Shown here one piece after another: positions 1 through 62,710 of a stretch of 64,000 nt of DNA. Every line of letters starts with the position of its first letter. The first letter of the stretch is position 1. A program made the position numbers and the translations under genes. The notes under the pieces were generated by a model. That model was not told where the DNA came from and searched no databases. It saw nothing but the letters and a program-made list of their open reading frames with translations. This stretch comes from Isoetes taiwanensis (lineage: Eukaryota > Streptophyta > Lycopodiopsida > Isoetales > Isoetaceae): assembly GCA_021234155.1 (NCBI GenBank), contig JAJEKV010000049.1, forward strand, positions 1,207,487-1,271,486, in the 5' to 3' direction.

Positions 1-1276
1 AAATGATAATCTGCAACCACAATTTATCGAACATAGTACATAATCTTATTAGGAATCAAACAAAATATTAATTACCTGGGAGTTGCCAAAGATATGGCTT
101 TTTCTTCAAAAAACAATTCCTCTATGGAACTTACCTTTCACTAGCTCCATGTGCATCATAAATTATGTCAAACATCTAATTGCAATTCTCAATTAACTTG
201 TCCCAGCCTAGACCAACTTTGTAGCAAAAAAAATATTTAGCTACATGAAGCTTAACACTAGAGTGGTCCCGGGGACTATTCCTGATCCATGGACCAGAAT
301 TGGTCCAATTGACCCACTTCCACTTAAACCAATATATCTGAGAATAGGAGTTTCAATTTCGCGATATATCGCCATCATATCAATCTTTACTTGATTCTTA
401 ATGATCTTCGAGAATTTCAAGGCCAATGAACTCACCTATATGATGTAGTGATTGTTCAAATATTAGAGAATTTGACAGTTTCTGCAACAGTTCAAAATTG
501 CATTCTTGGGTTTTCCTAGTATAAACAGGCCTAAACCTTGCTAAAATTGGAAGTATTTGTCTATTTATAATAGAACACATTGATTTGTATGTTTTCAGCT
601 TTGGTTGCTATCATATAACATCCGTGGAAGCCGGCAAATCCTATTTTGTTCAAAAATGCTGCGTGCGGTCTAGGAATTATTTCTCTCTTATATCATGGCA
701 ATGGGGCCGCAGTGCCTCAAGGCCTGCTGGAGGGAAAAGAGAGCTCAATGGTTGGCTAGATGGAATGTGCAGGAGCACAGGTGTATACATGTGCAAACAG
801 AGGCAGATCGCCATAGCTTGAGGCAATATCTTGACGCTTGCTTCCTCAGCAAGCTTTGGGATGCCAATGATGTCAAGACAGCACACTACCAGCGCCACAT
901 AAATCCTGCATTGGAACGAGGCCCGCAATGCTACCTGCGTACCCACTTGCCCATGAAAAGGCGCAGACTCATTGCCTCCATTCGCACAGGGGCACATCAT
1001 CTTCGAATTGAGACGGGCAGATGGATTGGTGAGCCACGCCAGGACAGGCTTTGTCAATGCTGCCAAATGGGACTCATTGAGGATGAATCTCATACCCTTC
1101 AAAGTTGCCCAGCATATGATCAAATTTGGACGCACTATGCTGAGTTGGTCAGGCCTGGCCAGCCGTTACATGTGACATTGAGCACAGCATCCGTATGGGT
1201 GCTGGGATCATACCTTCAGGAGGTTATGGACATGCGAGATCAGCTATTCCCCCGGGCACACACTTGTACAGTTTGA

Positions 1277-1360
1277 CAGCATTCTTATTACTGCCACGGT
1301 TTTTCCCTCAAAAACCCTTCGGGGCGGGGGTTTTTAACCCGGACAGTAATAAGTTTGCTG
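1277..1360 (+). other. Structured RNA candidate (ENE-like stem-loop), copy 1
   Basis: The outer arms are CAGCA-TT-CTTATTACTG and CAGTAATAAG-TT-TGCTG, a near-perfect 17-bp stem. Inside it, a GG/CC step leads to a U5 tract on the 5' side facing a U5 tract on the 3' side. A C3/G-run stem follows, then an A5 bulge, then CCC-TTCG-GGG (tetraloop 1318-1321). It sits between the ORF2 stop and the LINE 3' end. The stem sequences differ from copies 2 and 3 but keep pairing. The function as an ENE is inferred from architecture only. Confidence 0.6.
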
Positions 1361-1379
1361 CGCTCCTTATGGGTCCCAT

Positions 1380-1393
1380 AGGCCGATTGGCCT
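1380..1393 (+). other. LINE 3'-terminal hairpin, copy 1
   Basis: AGGCC-GATT-GGCCT lies between TCCCAT and TCAGTGGACGATAAAA at the LINE end. It aligns with 11112-11125 (AGACC-GATT-GGTCT in LINE sense) and 6775-6788 (AACCC-AGTT-GGGTT). Both outer base pairs change together across the copies. A role in recognition by the LINE RT is inferred from known stringent-type LINEs. Confidence 0.65.
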
Positions 1394-1449
1394 CAGTGGA
1401 CGATAAAAAATCATTCTCATTCTCATTCTTATTATTACAAGTTTTGGGT

Positions 1450-4400
1450 TAATTCTTGCGGGCATGGATTTTTAACTATATGAAGTACAATCTTATGTTT
1501 TTTTGGAGTGTTCATAAGTTATATCAACTTCAAAATCTAATAGAGAATTTTCTATACAGAATTTAGGACAAAATTATATGTTAAAATGCTCCAAAATCAC
1601 CACCTGTAAGTATCACGAGGGTAATGAATGATGCATTCTTCTTATATCTACATAGAAAATTACTCTATCAACTTGCATATAGTGTAATTAGGGTTTAACA
1701 ATACAATTAACTAGATTTAAAGATGATGTAGAACCATAGGATTAACACATTAGAGATTAAAATTTTGAGTTAATTCCAAAATTATAGGCTGAAAACTCAT
1801 CATTTACTAGCTAGTGATGTTTATTGATGAATGAAAGTGAAGATCACAAAGTTTAAGTATAAGAATAAAAAATTAAACCATTTGACCTTTGGTGCGTCTT
1901 TCTCAGCTTTATAGAGAACACACTACATTTCTCCAAATAGGCCTTTCAAATAGTTCAAAATATGACAAGGGTCATATATATAGGTCCCCTATGTAGGTTG
2001 TGTGGCTTTCTTGCAAAAAAAATACGGAGAAGCATGGTTATTTTTTACTAGTATAAAACTAGTATATCCATTGCTGCTACAAAGCATTAGAGTTTTAGTA
2101 GAATAATGTTACAAGTAGGTCATCTTTTATGTACACTATATTTTCATGAATGCGAGCCTTCCTTTGCAATATAACTCTCTATTTTCATATTGAAATAACA
2201 TATTATTTGAAAGATAGGAATATAATTAAGCATGAACCATTTATGGTCCATAACTAGACCAATTGTATAGAGCATATATCTCTCACTAGCCCTATCCATT
2301 TTGTCCCCATAATGATACCATGGTTTCTTACCTTTAATAATATAATTTTTAAAAGGTGTAAGTGGAAATCCATGTAGATTCAATTGGCGAATAAATACCC
2401 TATAAATCCACAGTTGTTTGTGCTTAAACATTGCCCTCAAATTATCCAAGCTCGTCTAACCAAGAACTGTACGCATAAACTACATTCTAAAGTTGAGATT
2501 AAAACTGATCAAGATGTTGCCTCTATTAATTTTTAAACTTCCAGCCCTGTGGACCAATAATGATCTGCAAGTGGAGCTGCACGTAGCAGTCTAACTTGAC
2601 TTTTTATAGTCATAAACTTCCATATTTTTCTTTGAACTTTTTTGCATTGTTTTTATGATATGGGACATTTTGAGAATATGTTTTTTCAAAGTCACGTCTC
2701 GAGGCATAAATCTAGAATAAACATAGAAGACATATTTGAATTTGATGCTATAAAATTTAATCCAAATCTCAAGGTTATGATCAACAAACATTTTCATTAC
2801 CAAAGTAAATCAGAAGCTATTTATATCCCAAAATTCAACTTCAGATCAATTAACATAAGGAAGTTATTGATTTTTAATGGACCTATGGATCACTAATGGG
2901 CTCAGGTACAGAAACCTTTCTTGATTTCTACCATGTCTTTTGCTTTTTTAATGAGCTTGTTTTTGCATTGGTTTCATATCATTTTGAACTTTCATATTAT
3001 GATTTTTTGGAGGACATCATAGAGTAAGTTTTGCTCTATATGGGAAAATATTAATTATTATTACAAGTTACCTAAAATTGAGATCAAAAGTGAAAGTCCA
3101 AACATCAAATTCAAGGCCACCCAACATTTTTATGGAATAAAGAAACTTGTCAATTGCTTATATATCAAATACTAGCTCAAAATGCATTTCCTTGTAAAAG
3201 TTGTTGTATTTAAAGTACAACTGCCTTCTGGGAACCATAATTGGTTCTGAGGAGGCAGAAAGCAGTTTTGACCCTGTCATGTTTGAATGGCCCTATCTTT
3301 CTTCACAGACTTCGGATTGACATGTGGTGTTTTGTGTCGTTTTCCCTATCTCGTATTGAAAAATATCATGGTAATCAAAAAATTTGAAAAAATCGTTTTG
3401 TCGAGATAGTTTTACTTTATGTAAACATGAAGCTTTTGGTACTTGACCCCCTCCCCCCTGAGTTTGCTAGAGCATAACTTACAAGAATGGAAGTGTATAT
3501 ATTTTTAGGTATTTTTATAGTGGACCATGACTGCCAAGGGTTCGAATAGATTTTGTACCATTGATTTTATATGAATTTTAAAGTGAACACTGCAGATGGA
3601 CCATTTCTGGTCCATCACCTGACCACTCTAGCGTTAACTTCTTCCTAAGTTAAGCTTTCAAGTTTTGTTAAACCCTCCTCCCCCCCTCCTTTCCAATATT
3701 CTAAGCTAAGTTCTATAGGATTTTTATTCGGCCAATTACTGACAGATTTAACTAGATCATTCGAGAGGACTTTCTAGATATACACGAGCATCTATCTATT
3801 TCTAGTTCTGCTTAGAAAACTTCAATCTGACAAAGATCTAAAAACCCTCTCAAACTATTACACTCAAGGCTCCTAGGGAAATCAACCCACAAAGCTCCAC
3901 AGAAACTTGAAATTGCGCTCCGATACCAATTTTGATACAAACTGCAAACTCAATCCAGCATCTGCAACAACATTCGTTAGGAAATAAGGCAAATAGACGC
4001 AAATCCACCTCTTAAGGGCAAAGCTCACCACCCAATCGGGCTATCCTGGGCAAGAGAACCTTTAAGAAAGACTGGATCTTGGAAGAAGGGAAGGTTTAGG
4101 GAAAACAATTTAACCTCTAGAGAATCCTCAATCTAGAGAAAACACAAATTCAAGGAAAGGCTGGGCTTGGGAATGGCTTTGGCAGGAAATTGGAAAATCA
4201 TAAACGATTGAAGGCTTCTCCAAGCAATCAATCCACATCACTGAATGTATGCTAAGATTCATCAAGATATAAAATCAAAATTGGGAGGTTTATCTGGATT
4301 GAAGGCTCTAATAGTTAATCTCAAGAAGCTGTGGTTGCCAAGCTACTGTGTCGGTCGAGATGCTGGTGCAATGATTCTGTCCGCATCCACCCTTTTATAC

Positions 4401-11060: not shown

Positions 11061-11111
11061 TACAATTTAAAGGAAGGAAGGAAGGAAAGAAGGTATTTTT
11101 ATCGTCCACAG

Positions 11112-11125
11112 AGACCAATCGGTCT
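11112..11125 (-). other. LINE 3'-terminal hairpin, copy 2
   Basis: In LINE sense this reads AGACC-GATT-GGTCT. Compared with copy 1 (AGGCC...GGCCT), one G-C pair has become A-T, a fully compensated change. It is flanked by the conserved TCCCAT and GTGGACGATAAAA. Confidence 0.65.
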
Positions 11126-11146
11126 ATGGGATCCAATACAAAAGCG

Positions 11147-11231
11147 CAGCAAGCAGATTACTACACGGATTAAAAAACCCCTGCCCCGAAGGGTTTTCGA
11201 GGGAAAAACCGTGATAGCAATCAGCCTGCTG
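11147..11231 (-). other. Structured RNA candidate (ENE-like stem-loop), copy 2
   Basis: In LINE sense the outer arms run from CAGCAGGCTGATTGC to GTAATCTGCTTGCTG, with G-U pairs and few mismatches over about 22 bp, ending in CACGG/CCGTG. Then come U5 facing U6, C3/G4, an unpaired GAAAA, and CCC-TTCG-GGG. The arms differ from copy 1 while pairing is preserved. It occupies the same place in the LINE 3' region as copy 1. Confidence 0.6.
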
Positions 11232-13011: not shown

Positions 13012-16000
13012 TCAAACAGAGAAGAGAAAACGAAGATCCTCAGTTGTCAGACGACTTCTTTGGCTATCCCCTCCATTTTCTCCAAATGCAGAGGCAACCA
13101 TTTGCCTTTTTTTTTCCTGCTCGCATAGCACACAATGTATGTTCCCTGCTTATAATCTGTGTAAAAATGTGCTCAAGAAAATATCCAGCATACCTGCAAT
13201 GCTAAAATTCGATCTTCGATTGTGTTCTTTACTGTGAAACGGGATACATGGACTGTCCGTGTTTGTCCAATCCTATGAGCTCGATCAATAGCTTGATCTT
13301 CTGTTGTCGGGTTCCACCACACATCAAGCAGAAGCACATGGCAGGCAGCTACCATGTTTAGACCCAAGCTTGCTGCTTTAAGAGACATGATCATCACAGT
13401 CACCTGCAAGTCACTTCAAACATAACTACTCCAGTAACAAAAAACATATAGACTGCTGAGACTTTCCCATTGAGGAGAATTTTGAAGACCAAACCAATTT
13501 ATTGATAGGTAAATACCTTGGGGTTAGTATTGAATTCTGATACAGCATTGTCCCTGTCTGAAACAGTCATTGTGCCATCCAGCCTTCTAAAACTTAAGCC
13601 AGCACATTTTAACGGAGTTTCAAGGAGATCAAGCATGCTTGTCCACTGTGAAAATACAATCGCCTTCTCAGTTCGCACCTCATTAGTAATGTTACCCTCT
13701 CCCATGCCGTCTGAACCATTTGGATCAGGACTTATCTTTGGTAAGGAAAGTATTATTCTCATTACTGCCTCAATTTTAGATGAAGTTTTCCAACTTTGGC
13801 CTCTTAAAGCTAATGCTAACTTCTTTTTGCCTGCAGGCTTTGAATTACCAGTAGCAGTGCCCTTGAGAGCAGCCAACGAGTAGAGAGAGGACTGGTTCAA
13901 ATGGACACGACATTTCGGGAACGGGCAGGTCGAATCATCACCAATAGCGAGTTTTTCCGATATGCACTGTCGGCAAAACACGTGACCACAAGCACTAACA
14001 ACTGCTTCCTCAGGTGCATCCTGACAAAAAACCGGGTTAAAAAGTTGGATCCTGTATATATAAATTATGTACATATAAAGTACAAACAACTAGCAAAAGA
14101 AAGAATGAGCAGGAGAGAGAAACACAAAGTGTTATGCAAAAATAAGGCTTTACATCACAATTTAGGTAGCAGAAAAAGTGTAAACTTACAAAAAGAAATA
14201 CTACTTATCAAATGCAGTTAGAAAACCTTACAGAGCAAATTGTACATGGTGCTTGATTACTTTCCAATATATGCTGAAGGTGAATTTGTTGTGATGCTGG
14301 AAGCTTCTTCATGAATTCCACTGCATGAGTTTCCATAACTTCTGACTTATCTTCCGCCACAAGAAGTGGATGATCACATGCTTGCCGTAAACGCAAAAGC
14401 ATCCATAAAATGTTCACATAATTGCTTTGGAGAGTACCCTCTTCTGCATATGCCTGAAAAAGTTGATTAAGACTTAATATCTGCTCAGATTTCAATCAAC
14501 ATGTACAGAAACCTCCAGTTACCTCAAACTTCCTCCGTGATTCAGCTTCCAGCTTAGAGTAAAACTCACGCTCATCATCAGTAAAATCTGCCTGTTGAAG
14601 CTTCACTATCCTTGCAGGCAAGTTCACTATAGGCTTCCCATCAATTAGACAATCTGTAATACAATGAGCAGGCAAAACCTTTTAAACATTTGCTTCAGAA
14701 ATTTAAGGAATACTAGGACATAGTAAATGGTAAACAAAAAAGAGATATACTCTTGGTGCGACGAAGCATGATTGCTTGCAGCACGCCTTGAAGCTTTTTG
14801 TAACCCACAGCAGGATTCCGGACTATTGGCTCTTTTATTTCTGCCCTAAAAGACTTGTATGCGTCTAAAGGATCAAACCGTAGAAAGCGAAAATAGCTGT
14901 ACAAATCATCAATTGCATTCTGAATAGGTGTCCCAGACAAGCACCATCTTCTTTTTGCTCTTAGACCCCAGCATGCACGAGCCACTTGTGTTCTACAGTT
15001 TTTAATGCTTTGGGCTTCATCTAGAACTACTCTGAACCACGAGACTCTTGATAAAGGTGCAGCATCAGACAATAAATTTTTATCATCTGCAATTTTGTTT
15101 CGTCCCTTCATCTTTCCCTTCTTAGAATCTTCTGTTTTCTTACCAATAGTCAATCCATAATGATCCAGACTTCTCCTGTCCTCATCTTTTTCATCCGGCA
15201 AAGGTTGTTTCGGGACTTCCATGGTAACAATTGAATAAGTTGTCAACACAACATCATGCCTTGCAAGCTCATCTGGATCCTTGGTCCTGTTGCTGCCATG
15301 GTAAATAAGAATGGAGAGATCAGCTGCAGGTGTGACCTTCTGCCTCAGTTCATGTGCCCATTGCCTCAGCACACTTGTCGGGCATACAACAAGTGTGCCT
15401 GCCATAGGTCTACGTTTGCTTGATAACTTCAGATCCTCATCTTTTACTTCATCCATCTCAGGTTCAATACTTTCAATCATCTTCCTTGTTGGAGTATTTG
15501 AAAGATAGTCATCGTCTTCTTCATCAAGATCAATAGCAGAAACCTTTGATTCTGGTGATGCGTAATTCCCCTCACTGAATTTGTTAATTGGTGCCCGTAC
15601 CTTAAGGATAAGTGCAATTGTAGACACAGTCTTCCCAAGCCCCTGTTAAGACAAGACAACATTCAGCGGGACCAAGGGGCAACTAGCTTTCCGCAAACAA
15701 TATAGAACTACCTGATCATCGGCAAGGATGCCTCCTGCACATTCTATTCTTTTTTCACACTTCTCCATCCATGCAAGTGCAATTTTCTGCAAAGCAGCAC
15801 ATAATGTTACAAAACTCAAACATGTTACAGCCATTGTCAAAAAAGAAACTAACTTGGTGCTTAAGAAGTGGAACAGCCATTAGGCCTTCCTCCAGACATG
15901 CTTCCTCTTTTTCGTCTCCTGAGAGCATCCTCTGTTATTTCAACAATTTAATCAAAAAACATATCAATGTCTGGACAAAGGCCACTCAACATAAATCATT

Positions 16001-17554
16001 GGCATGCAATAATACCTGCACAATGGTACGAAGGCTTTTATCCTCTCCAACCATCCCATTAGGCGGGTTACCACCAAAAGGGGGTGGTGGCCCATGTTTT
16101 ATATCTAGTATGGACCCTGGAAGGGTTCTTTTCTCATGCTTTATCGCTTCATAATTGTATCCTCCTCCCGTTCCATAACCTACCCCCAATAGCCGGTGTG
16201 CAGATATGGTTTGTGTTGGAGTTAAAAATGTCTTTTCCATTGCCCTTAGGTGCATAACAGCAGGTGTTGTTGGTCGTTCCAGTCTTTTAGATGATTCAAG
16301 TTGCCAGTCTGTCATTTTCCGCTTGCCATGTAGAGACGGACCCAGGGACACTTTGCAATCCTCATCGTCCTCAAAATCTTCATCACTATCACTATCTATC
16401 TCTATAATTGTACCCTTCAAGCTATTGCTGGTAGTGCCATTTCGTATACTACTCTTTGCCAGCTTGCTCTTAGAATTCAGGGATGATGATGATGTCTTGC
16501 AGTCAGATGCTAAAACTGACCCATCGCTTCGCCTGGGTCTCTCATAGTCAATCGTATTGTTCACGGTCTCTGCATCTGAATCATCATCTAAACAAGCCAC
16601 CTTTTGTGCAGAGGTGGTTGAACAGGATAGTTCGCTTCCATAATCTGCTATATAAATAGCAAAGTTAAGAAACAGTTCATTGTTGCTCGGCAAGGAAGAT
16701 GGGCAAATATATACCAACCTTGATCGTGCAAAGACTCGTGTTCCTCTTCATAATATGAACCTGGTTGCATTCCTGATGCTTCCAGGGTCCAGGCTGAACT
16801 CCCAAGATCCAAGGTAGTGCCTCCAGCTTCCTGATAATCATTGTATACCATGCGCCCATTGGTGTCCTGATAGAAGTCTTCTGTAGCTCGTGGTTGTAAA
16901 AAGTTATGCTCATATATGTGACCTGCCAAATCTCCTGTTTCAGCTACATCTTGTGGCGCATTACTGCCCTCAAATCCATTGTACTCATAACCAGCTATAT
17001 CCAGCTCCTCTGGAATGGTATGGTGAGCATGATCCTCCAACTCCCTAACTTGAAAACCACCCATGGTCATCTCTTGTGGCATAGTATCTTCAACTTGCTG
17101 TTGTGGCACTTGACTTGTCTGCAGTAGAAAATACGATGTTAACCGCGTTATATTATGCATGCTTTGCATGTTAGGTCTAAATATAAACTATTATCAAAAG
17201 TTTTCAATCTAATACAATGTAAACTGATTCCAATTTCTTCCAATTTACAAGGAAATACCGAGCATAAATGACCTGCAAGGAAGGGCCTGGTTCACTGAGA
17301 ATCCTCCAAAGCGCATCCCATTCCATGTCTGGTTCATCGTTATCTCGCAATTGATCAATTCCCCCATTTGAAGATATGCCCAAAGATTTATCATCACCCT
17401 TGCCATAGCCACCACTGCTATCACCAACTGCATTAGACAATACGGCGCCATCGAATTGCATGATCGAACCTTCAATCTTATAATCCAAACCACTACAATG
17501 TTCCGAAACCTCCTTTCTGTCTTGCTGCAAGTTCTGGCAAAGTATAGTTCCCAT
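13012..17554 (-). CDS. CHR28: RING-type SNF2 family ATPase/helicase, CHR27/CHR28 (FRG1/FRG2)-like
   Basis: Eleven exons can be joined at GT/AG sites without a frame break: 17554-17273, 17118-16719, 16644-16016, 15931-15854, 15786-15712, 15642-14751, 14653-14523, 14453-14232, 14020-13517, 13403-13194 and 13116-13012, giving 1175 residues. The start ATG is preceded at once by an in-frame TAG. Residues 1-437 are acidic and low complexity. The helicase core has Walker A ADDQGLGKT (485-493), DEAQ (696-699), LSGTPIQN after it, and the C-terminal motif RAHRIGQTR (1112-1120). A C3HC4 RING lies between the lobes (C899, C902, C914, H916, C919, C922, C935, C940), as in Rad5/HLTF-like proteins. The protein ends [14 protein letters not shown]. 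Family knowledge: Arabidopsis relatives act in the nucleus in RNA-directed DNA methylation. Introns are short (75-210 bp). All key residues are intact. Assignment to CHR27 or CHR28 individually is not possible. Confidence 0.93.
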
Positions 17555-27883: not shown

Positions 27884-28966
27884 CTACACAGAATGCACAT
27901 AAACAAGATTCAGCCTTGGCCATATTGAATCTTTCTCTGTTGTCTTTGGCCTCACATAATAACGCTCTTCCAACATCAGGATTTTGATCACAGCAGCAGT
28001 TGCAGAAGCAGGGTTCTTCATGCCCGTACATATTTGGGGGTCCAAATACTTTGAGCCACTCCAAGTTGACATTGGGATCGATCTTCCTCCATTTGATCTT
28101 TCGCACCAGTATAAATATGATCCCTGAAAATAAAAATAAGGAAAGATCCATGAGTATAGTTTAGATGACAGCATTAATCCAATTAATATCATAAGTAATC
28201 TGTTTGATGACAGCTTCAGGGTGCGTGATTTCATGATTGAAAATGAAAGTGTTACGCCCTTTCCAGATAGAATATAAATCCTCCAATCATTCGAGCTGTG
28301 AGACATAAAGAAATCCAGGGAGCTCATAGAGGATAGATTATAACCAAAGAGGTTAGAGGCTAGATCCAGCACCCATTCCGACCAAATACACTTCCTGAAG
28401 AGATGATCCTTACCCTCTTTTTGCCCCAAACATCTGGGACAGACATCAGAGTCGGTCATCTGCATTCTGTATCTCTTATGGTTTGTAGCCAACACTTTAT
28501 GCCACAGTTGGCATATGAAGGACTTGATCTTAGAAAAAAATGGACTGGACCACATAAACTTTAAATTCCTCGAGCATCTGTCAGCCTCTGTTTGCCATTT
28601 GTCATGAATAGTCATTGTGTACTCCCTCATAAGGAACCTATATGCCATTCTGACAGTCAGAATGGTTTTGCCATGGTAATTCCAGTTACCCCCTCCATCA
28701 GACCATTCTCCATGAATCAATGTGGTACAAATATTATTGTATAGATTCTCGCAAGTATCTCCTTCTTCAGCCAGGATTGAGTCTCTGAAGGGGATGATCC
28801 CATCTTCATTGTACATATCCCTGATAAGGGTAATTCCCTTGGTCCTCCAGAGCTTGGCCTGATCTGGAAAATGGCAAGCTAAACATAAAGATGGATCATT
28901 AGTAAGAATAGCAGGGTTCCAAAAAATGGATTGGTCCATAGAAAGCCCCTCTTTGCAGTTGAACAC
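27884..28966 (-). pseudogene. LINE ORF2, C-terminal zinc-binding region
   Basis: A 360-residue frame typical of the region after the RT in plant L1-like ORF2. It contains FICQLWHKVLATNHKRYRMQ and the Cys/His cluster VCPRCLGQKEGKDHLFRKC. The frame is open but disconnected from the RT by about 390 bp holding stops and a probable insertion (29.10-29.25 kb). Not functional alone. Confidence 0.75.
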
Positions 28967-29354
28967 TCCCCTGACCGAGTTCTAGGCCTTAATCCATTTC
29001 TTGATCAAAGCTGGAATGGATCTAGGGACAGTGAATGGAAAGTAAATAGAGTGAGGAAACCTTGACCTGCCTCCCATTGAGCGACAAACTTTATACAGAA
29101 AAAGGTAAATTTCCTACATAATTTAAGCTAGCAGGAAGCATTAAGCAAAAAAAACTAGTTTCCAGCCGGAAAATGTGAAGAATTCCATGGTTTTTTACCG
29201 GAAAACTTCCTGAGGATTTTTTTTTATATCGGAAATTCTTGATTTCAACAGGTAGGCTGCAAGGGTTCCCCGGAATTTGTCGTTCACTGCCTCCATCCAA
29301 AAGACCAACGTTTACTCAAGTAATGCCTAATGATGATGGAGATTGGATGCTTAC

Positions 29355-30197
29355 TCAGATTGTGGGCTGCTTAAAAAAATTCTTGGCAGCAAGTGCTAGG
29401 CCCTGCTTCTCGATGTTCATGACCCCCAGACCTCCTTCTTTCTTCTTTTTACAGCATTCCGTCATAGCTACTGGCGTCCAGCATCTTCTGTTCTGGCCAC
29501 ATGAGATATACCTGCCAATAATACTCTGCAGCTTATTAGATACTTTTTTGGGAGCCAGTATTACAGATGATTGATAGACATGAGAAGAGTAAATAACCGA
29601 GCTGGCAATGATTGCACGGCCCTGCTTAGAGATATACTTTGAATTAAGGCTATCTACCTTTCTTTGAAATTTCTCAGTGATATTTGTCCAAATGTCAGAA
29701 GGGCTGCCTTTTAAAGCAAAAGGGATGCCAAGAATTTTGGAAGAGTTGGTAGGGGTAATATACTTACAGCCCAGGAGATCAGTCGTATGCTCTCCCTTTA
29801 CCCGATCTTTGGCCAAAACTTTCGATTTAATAGGGTTGATCTTGCAGCCCGATACAGTTCCAAAGACCTCCAGAATGATTTGAGTATTGATGATCGACTG
29901 GTGGTCCATAGAAACTAGAATGAAGGTGTCATCTGCAAAATGACCATTCAAAATCTGATCCACTCCCTCATTATTATCCGGAAGATTTAAACCTTGCTTA
30001 GAGTTCTTAGCATCCTCCAATTTACAATGAAGGGCCTCCATGATAATAAGGAAAAGAAAGGGGGCCAGAGGGCACCCTTGCTTTACCCCTCTTTTCAGAG
30101 GAAAAAATGGGCTACATTCCCCGTTAATGAGGACTGAGGATCTTGAGTTGGTGAGGATAGCTCTAAATATGTGAATCACCTCGTTGGAGAAGCCCAT
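29355..30197 (-). pseudogene. LINE ORF2, RT C-terminal half (FADD catalytic motif)
   Basis: A 280-residue frame with GVKQGCPLAPFLFLI and FADDTFILV, the conserved RT motifs of non-LTR retrotransposons, then KILGIPFALKG and GRAIIASSVIY. It follows the N-terminal RT half after a stop and frame break at 30197-30225. The catalytic Asp pair is still present, but the protein cannot be made as one chain. Confidence 0.85.
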
Positions 30198-30224
30198 AGC
30201 CCTGCATCACTTAAAGAGGAAATT

Positions 30225-31499
30225 CTAGCTCACTGTATCAAAAGCCTTAGTTATATCTAGCTTGATTAGGGCAATGTCCTGATTGGAGTCCTTGGCCCAG
30301 TTGAGGCCTAGAATAGCTGTAACTACATTATCCAAAACAAACCTGTCTTTAAGATAGGCAGCCTGAGAGGAGCTAATAATCTTATCCAGAACAGGTTTGA
30401 GTCTCCTGGCAATCGTCCCTGAGATGAGCTTGTAAACCACATTAGAGAGAGATATTGGCCTGTAATCTGAGAAGGAAGCCGGCATATCCACCTTAGGAAT
30501 AAGTGTTATCAAATTGGTATTTATTCTGGCATCCATACATTTCTTGTCCCTGAACTCATTAGCTAAGCTCGTAACACAGTCCCCGATAATTGGCCATGCT
30601 TTTAGAAAGAATTCAACTGGGAGGCCACCTGGCCCTAGAGTTTTACCCTTGTCCACTCCCCTGGCTGTATGGAAGATCTCAATATTGGTGAAGGGCCTGT
30701 CTAGAGAAAGGTTGTCTTCATCTGTGACTTTATGCTGGATGTTTATGAATTCATCCATATTGTTATACATGCAGTCGTAATTGGTTCCCATAATGTTGGT
30801 AAAGTGCTCTGTGGCTGCTTTTTTAATTTGATCTTCCTCCACAATGACATCATCCCCAACCTTGATGTCAAAGATGTGATTTCTCTTAATTCTCCCTTTT
30901 GCTTTAGCAAAGAAAAACTTCGAGCTGCATCTTTCGTCATCCTTTATCTCTCTTATCTTGGCTTTGAGCCTCCACCCTTGGGCAATTATAATTTCTTCTC
31001 TTTCAATGTCTGCCCTAATATTGTCCTCCATTGCCTCTGGAGCATGAGGAAGAGATTTCCTAAGATTGTGGAGTAAAGCCATTTTCTGCTCATGGATGCT
31101 TTTGCCCCATTCCTTTAGCCAGTTCTTAATGGCCTTGGACACTGTTATCCACCAGAACATCCAGCCAGATGGTCCTCCAGGCTTGGGAAACTTAGAGATA
31201 ACCTGTTGTAACCTGTCCAGGAAGTCATCTTGATCCAACAGATTAGTATTCAGCTTAAAATAAGTTCTTTTCTTTTTAACCACATTCCTATCAGAAATAA
31301 TCAACTGCTGGGGATAGTGGTCTGAGAGAGTATACCCTTCCATGTTATCCATCCTATTACAATAATTCCAAAGATTTTCAGATAGGTAGAACCTGTCATG
31401 GAGGCAAAGGGTAGGATCACTTCTCTTATCCGTCCAGCTGTAAGAATTAGGCTTCGTCCAATATGAGATTGTGACCATTGATGAGATTCCTCCATGCAT
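30225..31499 (-). pseudogene. LINE ORF2, linker and RT N-terminal half
   Basis: A 424-residue frame. It contains TLSDHYPQQLI (end of the endonuclease domain), then a linker, then LITLIPKVDMPASFSDYRPI, RFVLDNVVTAI and LIKLDITKAFDTV, which are RT motifs 1-3 with the first catalytic Asp. It overlaps the endonuclease frame and ends in a stop just after motif A. Confidence 0.85.
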
Positions 31500-31777
31500 T
31501 TTTCTCTTGAGCCCCCAAAGGCCTGAAGTTCGTTCATAAAATTGTTAGTAACCATGTTAAGGTCACCCCCTAAAATACATTCATCAAATTCTAAATTATC
31601 TAGACTATTTTTAACTCTGTTCCAAATTCCTACCCTGTCACCTGGATTATTAAAGGCATAGATATTAACTAAAGCCATCCTTATTCCAAGCAGTGTACAC
31701 AATAAAATCTGCCACCTACCATCCCTGCCATTAACCATATACATATCAGACATATTGAGATTATTCCTCCAAGCCAC
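31301..31777 (-). pseudogene. LINE ORF2, endonuclease fragment
   Basis: The frame holds LCTLLGIRMALVNIYAFNNP and CILGGDLNMV, the GGDLN motif of the apurinic-like endonuclease of LINEs. The N-terminal part is missing (the element is truncated at about 31.8 kb), and the reading shifts to the next frame near 31.5 kb. Confidence 0.8.
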
Positions 31778-39240: not shown

Positions 39241-40610
39241 ATTCTAGAATGGGACTCGCATGAAACCAACAAACCGCCCGATAGATAGGCTTCTCATTCA
39301 TCTCAGCAGATTTTCTACAATGGTGGATAGTGGGTAGCCGCACACATGCAAACTACCCACGAAAATAAAGGGAAAATCCAATTATATCATTTGGACCCCA
39401 AAAATACAATGCTAACAGATGTTCGGCTGGTGTACCTGCCGAAAGCTTATCACCGGGATTAAAAAACCCCGCCCTTTCGGGTTTTCGAGGAAAAACCCTA
39501 GTGATAAACCTTCGGCAAGAGGCTTAGACAAACGCAAGGCAGAGAAATCGCTCCCAAAACCCACGAATGGAGAAGTCGAAACAAATGCCGCTCGCCAACC
39601 TGTACCTGCACATCACCAACACCACAAAAACAAAACAAAACAAACCTCCCAGAGTGGAGGGGCTGATTATGCGCGTGCCACGCGACAAATATAATAAACA
39701 AAGAAGGGGAGGGTGGGTTCAAAGAGAAAGAGGCTTCACTGAGAGAAGAAGAGGCGCCCGATGAGGAGTCGATGCGTAAACGCCCCTAAAATAGCAAACT
39801 CCCAACGGAATGGGCATGCGCACCGCGCATGCATGCAAAACATGCATGCTCGTCCCATTCTAGAATGGCGATCCAATGTCTCGGATCGATGGGATTCTAG
39901 AATGGGACTCGCATGAAACCAACAAACCGCCCGAATACCAAAGGACTTCCTTACAAACTAGGATCGAGGACGAAGGTCACAGGACAAAGGCTAAAGGCCG
40001 AAAAAGGACAGCATAAAAGAAACGCCAAATTGGCCAAACCAGGCAGGGAGAAGCCCCTCCCCTGCCTGGAAACAATTCAAAGAGAAAGAGGTACTGCTGA
40101 GAGAGAAGAGGAAGCGCCGATGAAGAGTCGATGCAGAACTAAAAAAGCGAACTCCCAACCAGAATGGGCATGCGCCGCCCGCATGCATGCAAAACATGCA
40201 TGCTCGTCCCATTCTAGAATGGCGATCCGATGTCTCGGATCGATGGGATTCTAGAATGGGACTCGCATGAAACTCAACAAACCGCCCGAATACCAAAGGA
40301 CTTCCTTACAAACTAGGATCGAGGATGAAGGTCACAGGACGAAGGCTAAAGGCCGAAAAAGGACAGCATAAAAGAAACGCCAAATTGGCCAAACCAGGCA
40401 GGGAGAAGCCCCTCCCCTGCCTGGAAACAATTCAAAGAGAAAGAGGTACTGCTGAGAGAGAAGAGGAAGCGTCGATGAGGAGTCGATGCAGAAACGCGCC
40501 TAAAATAGCGAACTCCCAACCAGAATGGGCATGCGCCGCCCGCATGCATGCAAAACATGCATGCTCGTCCCATTCTAGAATGGCGATCCAATGTCTCGGA
40601 TCGATGGGAT
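39241..40610. repeat. Tandem array of TIR-bearing units
   Basis: Three units start with ATTCTAGAATGGGACTCGCA (39241, about 39892, about 40249). Each ends with a reversed copy of that start (GCTCGTCCCATTCTAGAAT, at about 39866, 40219 and 40578). Units 2 and 3 are about 330 bp and almost identical. Unit 1 is about 626 bp with a different middle. Spacers contain GATCCGA-TGTC-TCGGATC. Inside units 2 and 3 are the inverted repeats CCAGGCAGGG/CCCTGCCTGG and GCATGCATG-CAAAA-CATGCATGC. The open frames here (113, 109 and 103 residues) are by-products of the repeat. Confidence 0.75.
39435..39519 (-). other. Structured RNA candidate (ENE-like stem-loop), copy 3
   Basis: Read on the minus strand, the arms CTTGCCGAAGGTTTATCAC and GTGATAAGCTTTCGGCAGG pair over 19 bp with G-U pairs. 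GGG-U5 then faces U6-AAU-CCC, followed by CC/GG, GAAAA unpaired, and CCC-GAAA-GGG. The arms are unrelated to those of copies 1 and 2, yet the core is the same. It lies in the middle of unit 1 of the TIR array, with no LINE tail around it. Confidence 0.6.
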
Positions 40611-61267: not shown

Positions 61268-62710
61268 TCAGTAGTATGAAGGCAAGTTGCTCCTGTCAGG
61301 GACAACAGCATAGTTCTGCTCACCTTCTGGTTCAGACCTCTTGGCAAACCTGCCTTTGACCCTAGGCCTGCTCTCAGCATATGCTTTTCTAGAGGCATAC
61401 CTTATTGTCTTCTCAAAGTTCCTATTCTTCCTTTTTTCTTTGTATCTCATGACTCTGGCCTCTCTGTCCATGCCATCTGGTGCAGCAGCATGCTGGGCAG
61501 TCTCTGATGTTGGGGAAGTGGAGGAAGAATACATGATCTTCTATACAGTAATCAAATGAAAGTCAAAAACCACAATTTTTACAAACCTTAACATGCCTTA
61601 TCAAACAACAGCCAACCAGAACAAGGCACATATAGTTTTTCCTTCCATAAGCTACGGCTTTCTTTTCTGGGGATGTTAAAATACCATCTATCTATCTTCT
61701 TTGAAATACCTCTTCCATCAAGTAGAATCAGGAGGTAAAGTTTAAACATGGAAACTTCTTCCTGCTGTTTTAACAAATTTCAGAGAAATCAAAGAGAACA
61801 AGAATCACTTATCTAAACACATCTATCTTTTTGCCATACCCCTAAAACAATAAAATAGAAATTAAGAACCAGAGCAGACAGATTTGGGCATGGCTCCTCC
61901 GTCTAACACCTCAGGGATAACTCAGTAGAAGACATAGGCGATTTTTATTTTTGCAAAGGAAAGGACCCAAAAATGAATGCATGGAAATTTTCTAACCGTA
62001 TGCTTTGGAGGTGATATTGCAGGGCCTCCAGTGCTACATTGTGTCTGTTGAGGAACCTCCGCTTCATAGACCACCGAAGTTGTAGGTCTCACAGAAGAGG
62101 ATTCGAAAAGGGCTTCAATAGACTGATCAGGAACTAAACTATCTGGAGCACCTCCGCCTTCAGGAGCAATCCTAGAAGCAAATTCTTCAAGATATAAACC
62201 AACATCATACCCAACACCATGATGAGAGTTTGGAAATTTGCACTTTATTCTGCCCTTTGATCTGCTGTCTCTGCCGGGGGACGGAGAAGAGGGAAAATAT
62301 ATTTCATCGTCTATAATCTCTTCTGCATGAGATTGAGTGCCCAAAGTCCAACTAAGACCCTGACCATCAGATTTACTTGTAAATCCCGGATCTATGACGT
62401 GCTTATGAGACTCCGTCTTTTCTTGACAGTCTACAGGGGTAATGGGGGATCTGTCGTGCTTGCTTGCTAAAGGGTTAGCAGAATGTACTTCTATGTCACA
62501 GGCACTACATAAGGCTGCAGAATCTGCCTTGCAAGTTACCACGGCAGGCTTCATTTCACAAACCGCGCATATCCAGACCCTTTCATGCCTGGAGGCCAAC
62601 TTATTCGCCTCGTGAATCTCTGCATCACAATCTGCACATAAAAACCCTGAATCTGCCTTACAGAAAAGCACCGCATCTGCTCCTTGGCACGCATCACAGG
62701 GCCTCGGCAT
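61268..62710 (-). CDS. COL: CONSTANS-like protein with two B-boxes and a CCT domain
   Basis: Two exons, 62710-61997 and 61540-61268, join at GT/AG sites in frame to give 328 residues. B-box 1 has C5, C8, C17, D20, C25, C28, H33 and H42. B-box 2 has C48, C51, C60, D63, C68, C71, H76 and H85. All zinc ligands are present. The middle is acidic and serine-rich. The CCT domain (264-306) runs from [18 protein letters not shown] to VKGRFAKR. The C-terminus has YAVVP (315-319), the Val-Pro pair that in related proteins binds the COP1 WD40 domain, then nine more residues. Two B-boxes with a CCT and one intron before the CCT fit group I COL proteins: nuclear regulators of light and photoperiod response that work with NF-Y factors through the CCT. 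No defects are seen. Confidence 0.95.

Follow-up and report, generated by a model that had tools for sequence, protein, structure and literature searches.

An ENE-like hairpin core common to LINE, Ty1/copia and Helitron-like transposons of Isoetes taiwanensis

What kind of RNA structure recurs three times in one stretch of a lycophyte genome, which elements carry it, and what might it do for them? The question is raised by the window, the whole stretch of 64,000 nucleotides of Isoetes taiwanensis DNA analysed here. A first-pass annotation made from the letters had proposed that three hairpins in it, lying in LINE 3′ regions and in a TIR element, share the design of ENEs, the elements that clamp a poly(A) tract in a triple helix and protect RNA from decay.

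The hairpin in the window and in the genome

The three copies are present in the sequence at the places and on the strands given in that annotation (Table 1), and for each of them 0 of 200 shuffles reached as good a fold energy. The folds are also much as described. Next to a GG/CC step, an internal loop of facing U tracts (U5/U5 in copy 1, U5/U6 in copies 2 and 3) is followed by a bulge of A5 or A4 and by an apical hairpin, which is CCC-UUCG-GGG in copies 1 and 2 and CCC-GAAA-GGG in copy 3, so that the reported swap of the loop stands. The minimum-energy fold of copy 2 differs from the description, the A4 run being paired with the 3′ U tract.

Table 1. Positions of the hairpin copies, their parts, their hosts and other elements in the window
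Feature	Position	Strand	Remark
ENE-like hairpin, copy 1	1277..1360	+	fold z -5.87; R1 105 bits
Copy 1, closing step of outer stem	GG 1298-1299, CC 1338-1339	+	
Copy 1, U tracts	U5 1300-1304, U5 1331-1335	+	
Copy 1, inner helix strands	CCCUC 1305-1309, G5 1326-1330	+	
Copy 1, A bulge	A5 1310-1314	+	
Copy 1, apical hairpin	1315-1324	+	CCC-UUCG-GGG
LINE protein, C-terminal part	695..1276	+	193 aa; 5′-truncated copy; adjoins copy 1
LINE copy 1, second 3′ hairpin	1373..1401	+	GUCCCAUAGGCCGAUUGGCCUCAGUGGAC
LINE copy 1, A6 run	1405..1410	+	candidate intramolecular partner of U loop
LINE copy 1, microsatellite tail	1411..1430	+	(TCATTC)n
ENE-like hairpin, copy 2	11147..11231	-	LINE subfamily with TTCC tail; fold z -6.11; R1 101 bits
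LINE copy 2, second 3′ hairpin	11104..11133	-	
LINE copy 2, A5 run	11096..11100	-	followed by (TTCC)n
ENE-like hairpin, copy 3	39435..39519	-	GAAA loop; 20-bp outer stem; fold z -7.81; R1 87.5 bits
Helitron-like unit with copy 3	39242..39894	-	5′ TCCCATCGATCC..., 3′ ...CATTCTAGAA, T after
Two more head-to-tail units, 361 and 354 bases	39895..40609	-	no hairpin; no R1 match
Second LINE	27884..31777	-	RVT_1 domain split over two frames
Presumed host gene, SNF2/RING-type helicase	13499..17169	-	likely; by eye
Presumed host gene, B-box zinc finger protein	61922..62710	-	likely; by eye

Copies were scored with R1, a covariance model run on the window and on fetched loci. R1 was built from alignment A1, which holds 33 copies including the three of the window (window copy 3 and 32 of 73 core-pattern matches, picked by hand) and from which the structure itself was partly derived. 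On the window R1 gives three matches at 87.5–105 bits, and the next best, at 20.5 bits, lies on the opposite strand of copy 1. Rfam, which may not hold an ENE family, has no match over the window at the gathering threshold; a match near copy 1 with an E value of 3.3 was dismissed as chance.

Searching the 1.66-Gb genome by patterns, the exact core is found at 3,224 places (1,611 + 1,613) and the GAAA form with up to 2 mismatches at 4,061 (1,966 + 2,095), while the reversed-pattern controls give 0 in both cases; these counts are lower bounds, and the two sets may overlap. The observation is larger than the first-pass annotation had recorded, with thousands of core matches and covarying stems. 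The loops are mostly UUCG or GAAA, other variants being rarer, and the pattern tried for other GNRA loops (GBAA) has 0 matches in the genome. The GAAA loop also occurs inside the LINE, in subfamily S6, and therefore the exchange of UUCG for GAAA is no mark of element class.

Since fetching by the core could bias the loci, copies were also fetched via other parts of the elements, separate from the core (independent ASCERTAINMENT). Among LINE 3′ ends found by the tail pattern, 34 of 40 match R1 at E <0.01, 32 of these above 40 bits; the 40 are the first among 100 places listed of 3,929 matches. Two such ends (L058 and L063) reach just 25–28 bits, and the six that miss (L036, L044, L060, L070, L074 and L075) are, by eye, truncated from the 5′ side within the hairpin or below it. 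Of the LINE copies selected through their protein 8/8 match, one of the eight being the window copy and two having been selected for a long open frame; of those selected through the S5 linker 14/16 match. Of Helitron-like 3′ ends, 12/20 match; these were hand-picked from 100 listed of 1,070 matches, 4 of the 12 positives were already known by the core, and units without the hairpin have that same end. One hairpin core is common to three unrelated transposon classes, namely LINE, Ty1/copia and Helitron-like elements.

Three classes of host

The LINE protein of the window is 86–95% identical to 149 other scored places of the genome (of 46,377 first-look candidates 150 were scored, and all matched). 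In a longer relative, L108, the open frame spans 1,080 aa and encodes the domains PF03372 Exo_endo_phos (5.2e-12) and PF00078 RVT_1 (1.1e-29). Judged by this endonuclease and reverse transcriptase in one ORF, the host is an APE-type LINE, of the RTE or another clade. The hairpin starts about 50 nt (L109) or about 100 nt (L108) after the stop codon, and a second hairpin, an A run and a microsatellite follow; copy 1, L108 and L109 bear out the proposed position in the 3′ UTR of a LINE that ends in a microsatellite. Six LINE subfamilies, sorted by eye, were seen with the hairpin in the 3′ UTR, and their tails are TTCC (S1), TCATTC (S2), TATTC (S3, S4 and S5) and AATTC (S6).

The LINE 3′ end has further parts behind the hairpin. 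In the second hairpin one purine-pyrimidine pair is G.U in 30, A-U in 22 and G-C in 12 of the 64 rows read among 74 LINE 3′ ends, where the pyrimidine is fixed as T in rows found by the tail. An A run of at least 4, mostly 4–6 long, stands in 71/74 of these ends, a count in which at least three loci were entered twice and two of the As came with the search anchor. The A run lies 68–73 nt from the U tract in 44 of the 45 rows, among the 74, for which this spacing was measured.

A supposed further family (L137, L140 and L142–L149) was rejected and its members are placed in LINE subfamily S6, which has a GAAA loop and an AATTC tail. The LINE tail is present in 7/8 loci fetched; L137 and L140, the latter identical in position with L142, were placed in S6 by eye from the sequence flanking the hairpin. 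The outer stem of L142–L149 is longer, the subfamily is possibly older, and L147 also carries an S2-type hairpin nearby. In L056 (94–193) the LINE hairpin is inverted relative to its own tail, as after twin priming. The second LINE of the window, with an A10 run at about 27258, is possibly a plant L1-type element and a natural contrast; near it R1 has no ENE-like match above 15 bits.

The host of copy 3, called a TIR element in the first-pass annotation, has no ordinary terminal inverted repeats. Its inverted repeat is terminal at the 3′ end and internal at the 5′ end, where several hairpins lie. The element begins as A|TCCCATCGATCC and ends as CATTCTAGAA|T; A precedes TC in 9/9 single 5′ ends read, while the 3′ T was part of the search term. 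In the window, units of 361 and 354 bases without a hairpin are followed head to tail on the minus strand (39242–40609) by one of 653 bases, and this last unit alone has the hairpin, 193 nt from its 3′ end. By the 5′ TC after A, the 3′ T, the terminal hairpins and the head-to-tail arrays, we class the element as Helitron-like; the CTRR that ends a Helitron at 3′ is absent from the units read, which end in CTAGAA, GCAAGAA, CGAGAA or CCAGAA before the T. Four subfamilies with differing stems were distinguished, H1–H4, of which H3 and H4 are one copy each (L014 and L136). Helitron Rep domains are common in the genome (1,813 first-look candidates, 150 scored, those listed above the cut-off). In 9 stretches beside or downstream of RepHel loci, two of them partly masked, the search for an autonomous Helitron carrying the hairpin found none; the single R1 match there (L129; E <=1, 30.3 bits) belongs to the decayed 3′ end of a LINE, which has a tail of its own.

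A further host, beyond those in the first-pass annotation, is found at 31 genome places at up to 3 mismatches (L024/L096–L101). L098 encodes PF07727 RVT_2 (2.8e-76), and in L096–L101 the hairpin lies just past the pol stop and before a G-rich polypurine tract, after which comes TGTTCGAG... An RVT_2 pol followed by polypurine tract and LTR identifies the carrier, from its 3′ side, as a Ty1/copia LTR retrotransposon. Its U tracts are U4/U5. The outer stem of L096–L101 resembles that of LINE S3 (TTATTACTGCTAAGG), a likeness that may point to capture in one direction or the other between the LINE and copia.

Anatomy and selection on the RNA structure

The conserved parts were followed in A1 and in a second alignment, A2, of 12 real copies from 11 subfamilies, S6 being represented twice. 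The GG/CC step that closes the outer stem (G27-C75, G28-C74) is kept in 12/12 copies of A2 and, as G-C, in 31/33 and 29/33 of A1, and C36-G58 on the other side of the U loop in 12/12 of A2. Between them the tracts are U5/U6 in 7/8 subfamily strings and U4/U6 in the H4 copy L136; overall, U4–5 faces U5–7, mostly U5 against U6. The cap consists of a CC(C)UCG/CGGGG(G) helix, the A4 bulge and the CCC-N4-GGG hairpin. The ENE-like fold is adopted by all eight subfamily majority strings, in which no more than 2–3 U-A pairs form at the loop edge. As in window copy 2, the minimum-energy folds of L136, L143, L144 and L145 pair the A4 run with a U tract and close the U loop, which could reflect either a genuine switch or energy models that leave triplexes out. 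Of five further copies folded, four reach z values between -3.4 and -6.4; L116 (S5) has -0.59, with 54/200 shuffles as good.

Pairing is maintained through change. Of the 25 pairs in A2, 13 have changes on both sides, and 92.7% of cells are paired versus 33.6–50.8% when the structure is slid. The covariation score is 0.455 against 0.172 shuffled; two of five measures were reached by shuffles, the number of pairs with double changes in 10/500 and that of further pair types in 42/500. One outer-stem column, 14-87, is unpaired in 6/12 of the copies. In A1, double changes are found at 14/24 pairs, 93.7% of cells are paired versus 40.3–47.0% slid, and 0/500 shuffles reached the covariation score. 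The U.G wobble of the inner helix is kept in 30/33 copies of A1 and 11/12 of A2.

The first-pass annotation had named two sequence outcomes against its reading, random mismatches in the stems and U tracts that are not conserved. The U tracts are kept across the subfamilies. Differences between subfamilies are mostly compensated as well: when majority strings are compared, 159 cells differ, of which 104 changed on both sides with pairing preserved and 40 lie where one or both strings have lost the pair. These counts are pairwise and are not independent events. Private changes of single copies behave otherwise, only 7/72 being double and pair-keeping, and 37 of the 62 single ones break a pair; single copies are presumably mostly dead, so that neutral decay is expected in them. 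For this comparison 94 rows were aligned and 78 counted, the rows dropped being 9 with a rearrangement or truncation and 7 from loci fetched a second time (an earlier version with 85 rows still held duplicates); of the 74 LINE rows 6 have no subfamily and 6 more no U tract, and L030 was left out. The source lineages have kept the stems largely by compensatory change. Compensated stems, together with the kept G-C closing pairs, U tracts and U.G wobble, argue that selection acted on the RNA structure of the hairpin, as the first-pass annotation had held.

A single-domain ENE-like module and its relation to known systems

The internal loop of the hairpin is U-rich on both strands and is directly framed by G-C pairs, the design noticed at the outset and now seen across subfamilies. 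A dENE has two U-rich internal loops in one hairpin, whereas all subfamilies aligned have a single U loop. In every point visible in sequence, the anatomy corresponds to a single-domain ENE. We consider it probable that the copies form one family of single-domain ENE-like RNA elements spread among unrelated transposons here, in whose transcripts the U loop would take up an A stretch. For the copia and Helitron-like transcripts this stretch would be the poly(A) tail. We infer that the hairpin clamps poly(A) and thereby may affect the stability of the RNA. Its presence in LINE, copia and Helitron-like elements suggests that its value lies in a step that they share, most simply survival of the RNA. 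A more specific proposal can be made only tentatively, and we hold it rather doubtful: a mobile RNA module would have moved between the three classes, and in the LINE it would clamp the element's own run of A4–6, 68–73 nt away between second hairpin and microsatellite, thereby shielding the end of the template and offering it to target-primed reverse transcription in the absence of a poly(A) tail.

Alternatively, the hairpin could be a signal by which the LINE reverse transcriptase recognizes its own RNA, as do the 3′ stem-loops of stringent-type LINEs. It does lie near the 3′ end of a LINE whose end is defined and lacks poly(A), yet the second hairpin, nearer that end and with G.U, A-U or G-C at one pair, is better suited. 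Moreover, the hairpin is kept with its own compensated stems in the Helitron-like element and is present in copia, for neither of which LINE target-primed reverse transcription is expected; its occurrence in three classes thus speaks against this role, which we set aside as unlikely. The same conservation might serve some other cis-acting RNA element, such as a nuclear export element or a 3′ cap-independent translation enhancer, without any clamping of poly(A). The conserved internal loops and the near-invariant apical core with its A4 bulge could form a protein site. However, the two U tracts that face each other within a G-C frame, as in a minimal ENE, are among the most conserved of the unpaired parts, and such a function appears improbable to us.

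The pairing of the A4 run with either U tract (GGUUUU/AAAACC or AAAACCC/GGGGUUUU) could also constitute an intramolecular switch, with the hairpin closed in one state and the U loop open in the other. Some copies have such an alternative as their minimum-energy fold, and 12/12 rows of A2 share without change the A run and the following CCC, with an inserted C in S5. Nevertheless, the A run is broken up in that subfamily (AAACAA), whose majority string still folds ENE-like, as do the other subfamily strings with their few U-A pairs, and we give the switch little chance. Finally, compensatory changes would preserve a hairpin in DNA too, and the Helitron-like element has DNA hairpins at its 5′ end, so the structure might be a cruciform, a feature of replication or recombination, or a mere remnant without a role in RNA. 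The nearly invariant U.G wobble favours RNA over DNA; the prevalence of UUCG and GAAA as tetraloops and an orientation that, among copies read, is constant with respect to the reading frames of LINE and copia point the same way, which leaves this explanation highly improbable.

RNA stability elements are a little-explored route by which transposons may outrun RNA decay of the host. Here one structured element with a near-fixed core occurs, in one genome, in three classes with different mechanisms of transposition. The LINE makes it testable whether a triple helix guards the template end of a retrotransposon without poly(A), and the compensated subfamilies are natural mutants.

If the ENE-like reading is correct, the hairpin joins a known kind of element. 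The definition and position of ENEs in PMC8704770 and PMC12501189 agree with the hairpin described here; the A4 bulge lies outside the definition as it appears there. According to PMC12501189, a survey of 2016 counted about 200 ENEs, mostly in plants and fungi and strongly associated with LTR retrotransposons. ENEs in plant transposon RNAs are already known, as the first-pass annotation had stated, and one of them is in a copia. LINEs or the present core may be among the plant and fungal transposon ENEs of the 2016 survey (Tycowski et al. 2016). In the partial literature searched, no title or abstract reports an ENE in a LINE or Helitron, and the core appears as letters in no paper.

The rice hAT element TWIFB1 (PMC10855403) has another ENE in a plant transposon RNA, a dENE of two domains, whereas the subfamilies here have one U loop. 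The ENEs of MALAT1 and MENbeta (PMC11411715 and PMC8704770) share the U-rich loop, and the encoded A tract downstream in the LINE offers a possible partner. Unlike in those RNAs, the A run of the LINE is mostly 4–6 long, lies beyond a second hairpin at a distance of about 70 nt and precedes a microsatellite. A close parallel is the ENE of Evade (Copia93) of Arabidopsis, which according to PMC12501189 forms a triple helix with A20 and raises RNA stability and mobility. Like the copia hairpin here, it belongs to a plant copia and has a U-rich internal loop, an essential G-C frame and a place in the 3′ UTR between ORF and LTR. The Evade element has, in the same source, four U-rich tracts in a long spacer. 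The hairpin of I. taiwanensis, known from sequence, has one U5/U5–6 loop with an A4 bulge and a near-fixed apical hairpin, and it is also found in LINE and Helitron-like elements. As far as we can tell, what is new is that homologous copies of one ENE-like module occur in three transposon classes within a single genome, and that the module is present in six subfamilies of a microsatellite-tailed LINE with a near-fixed A run behind it.
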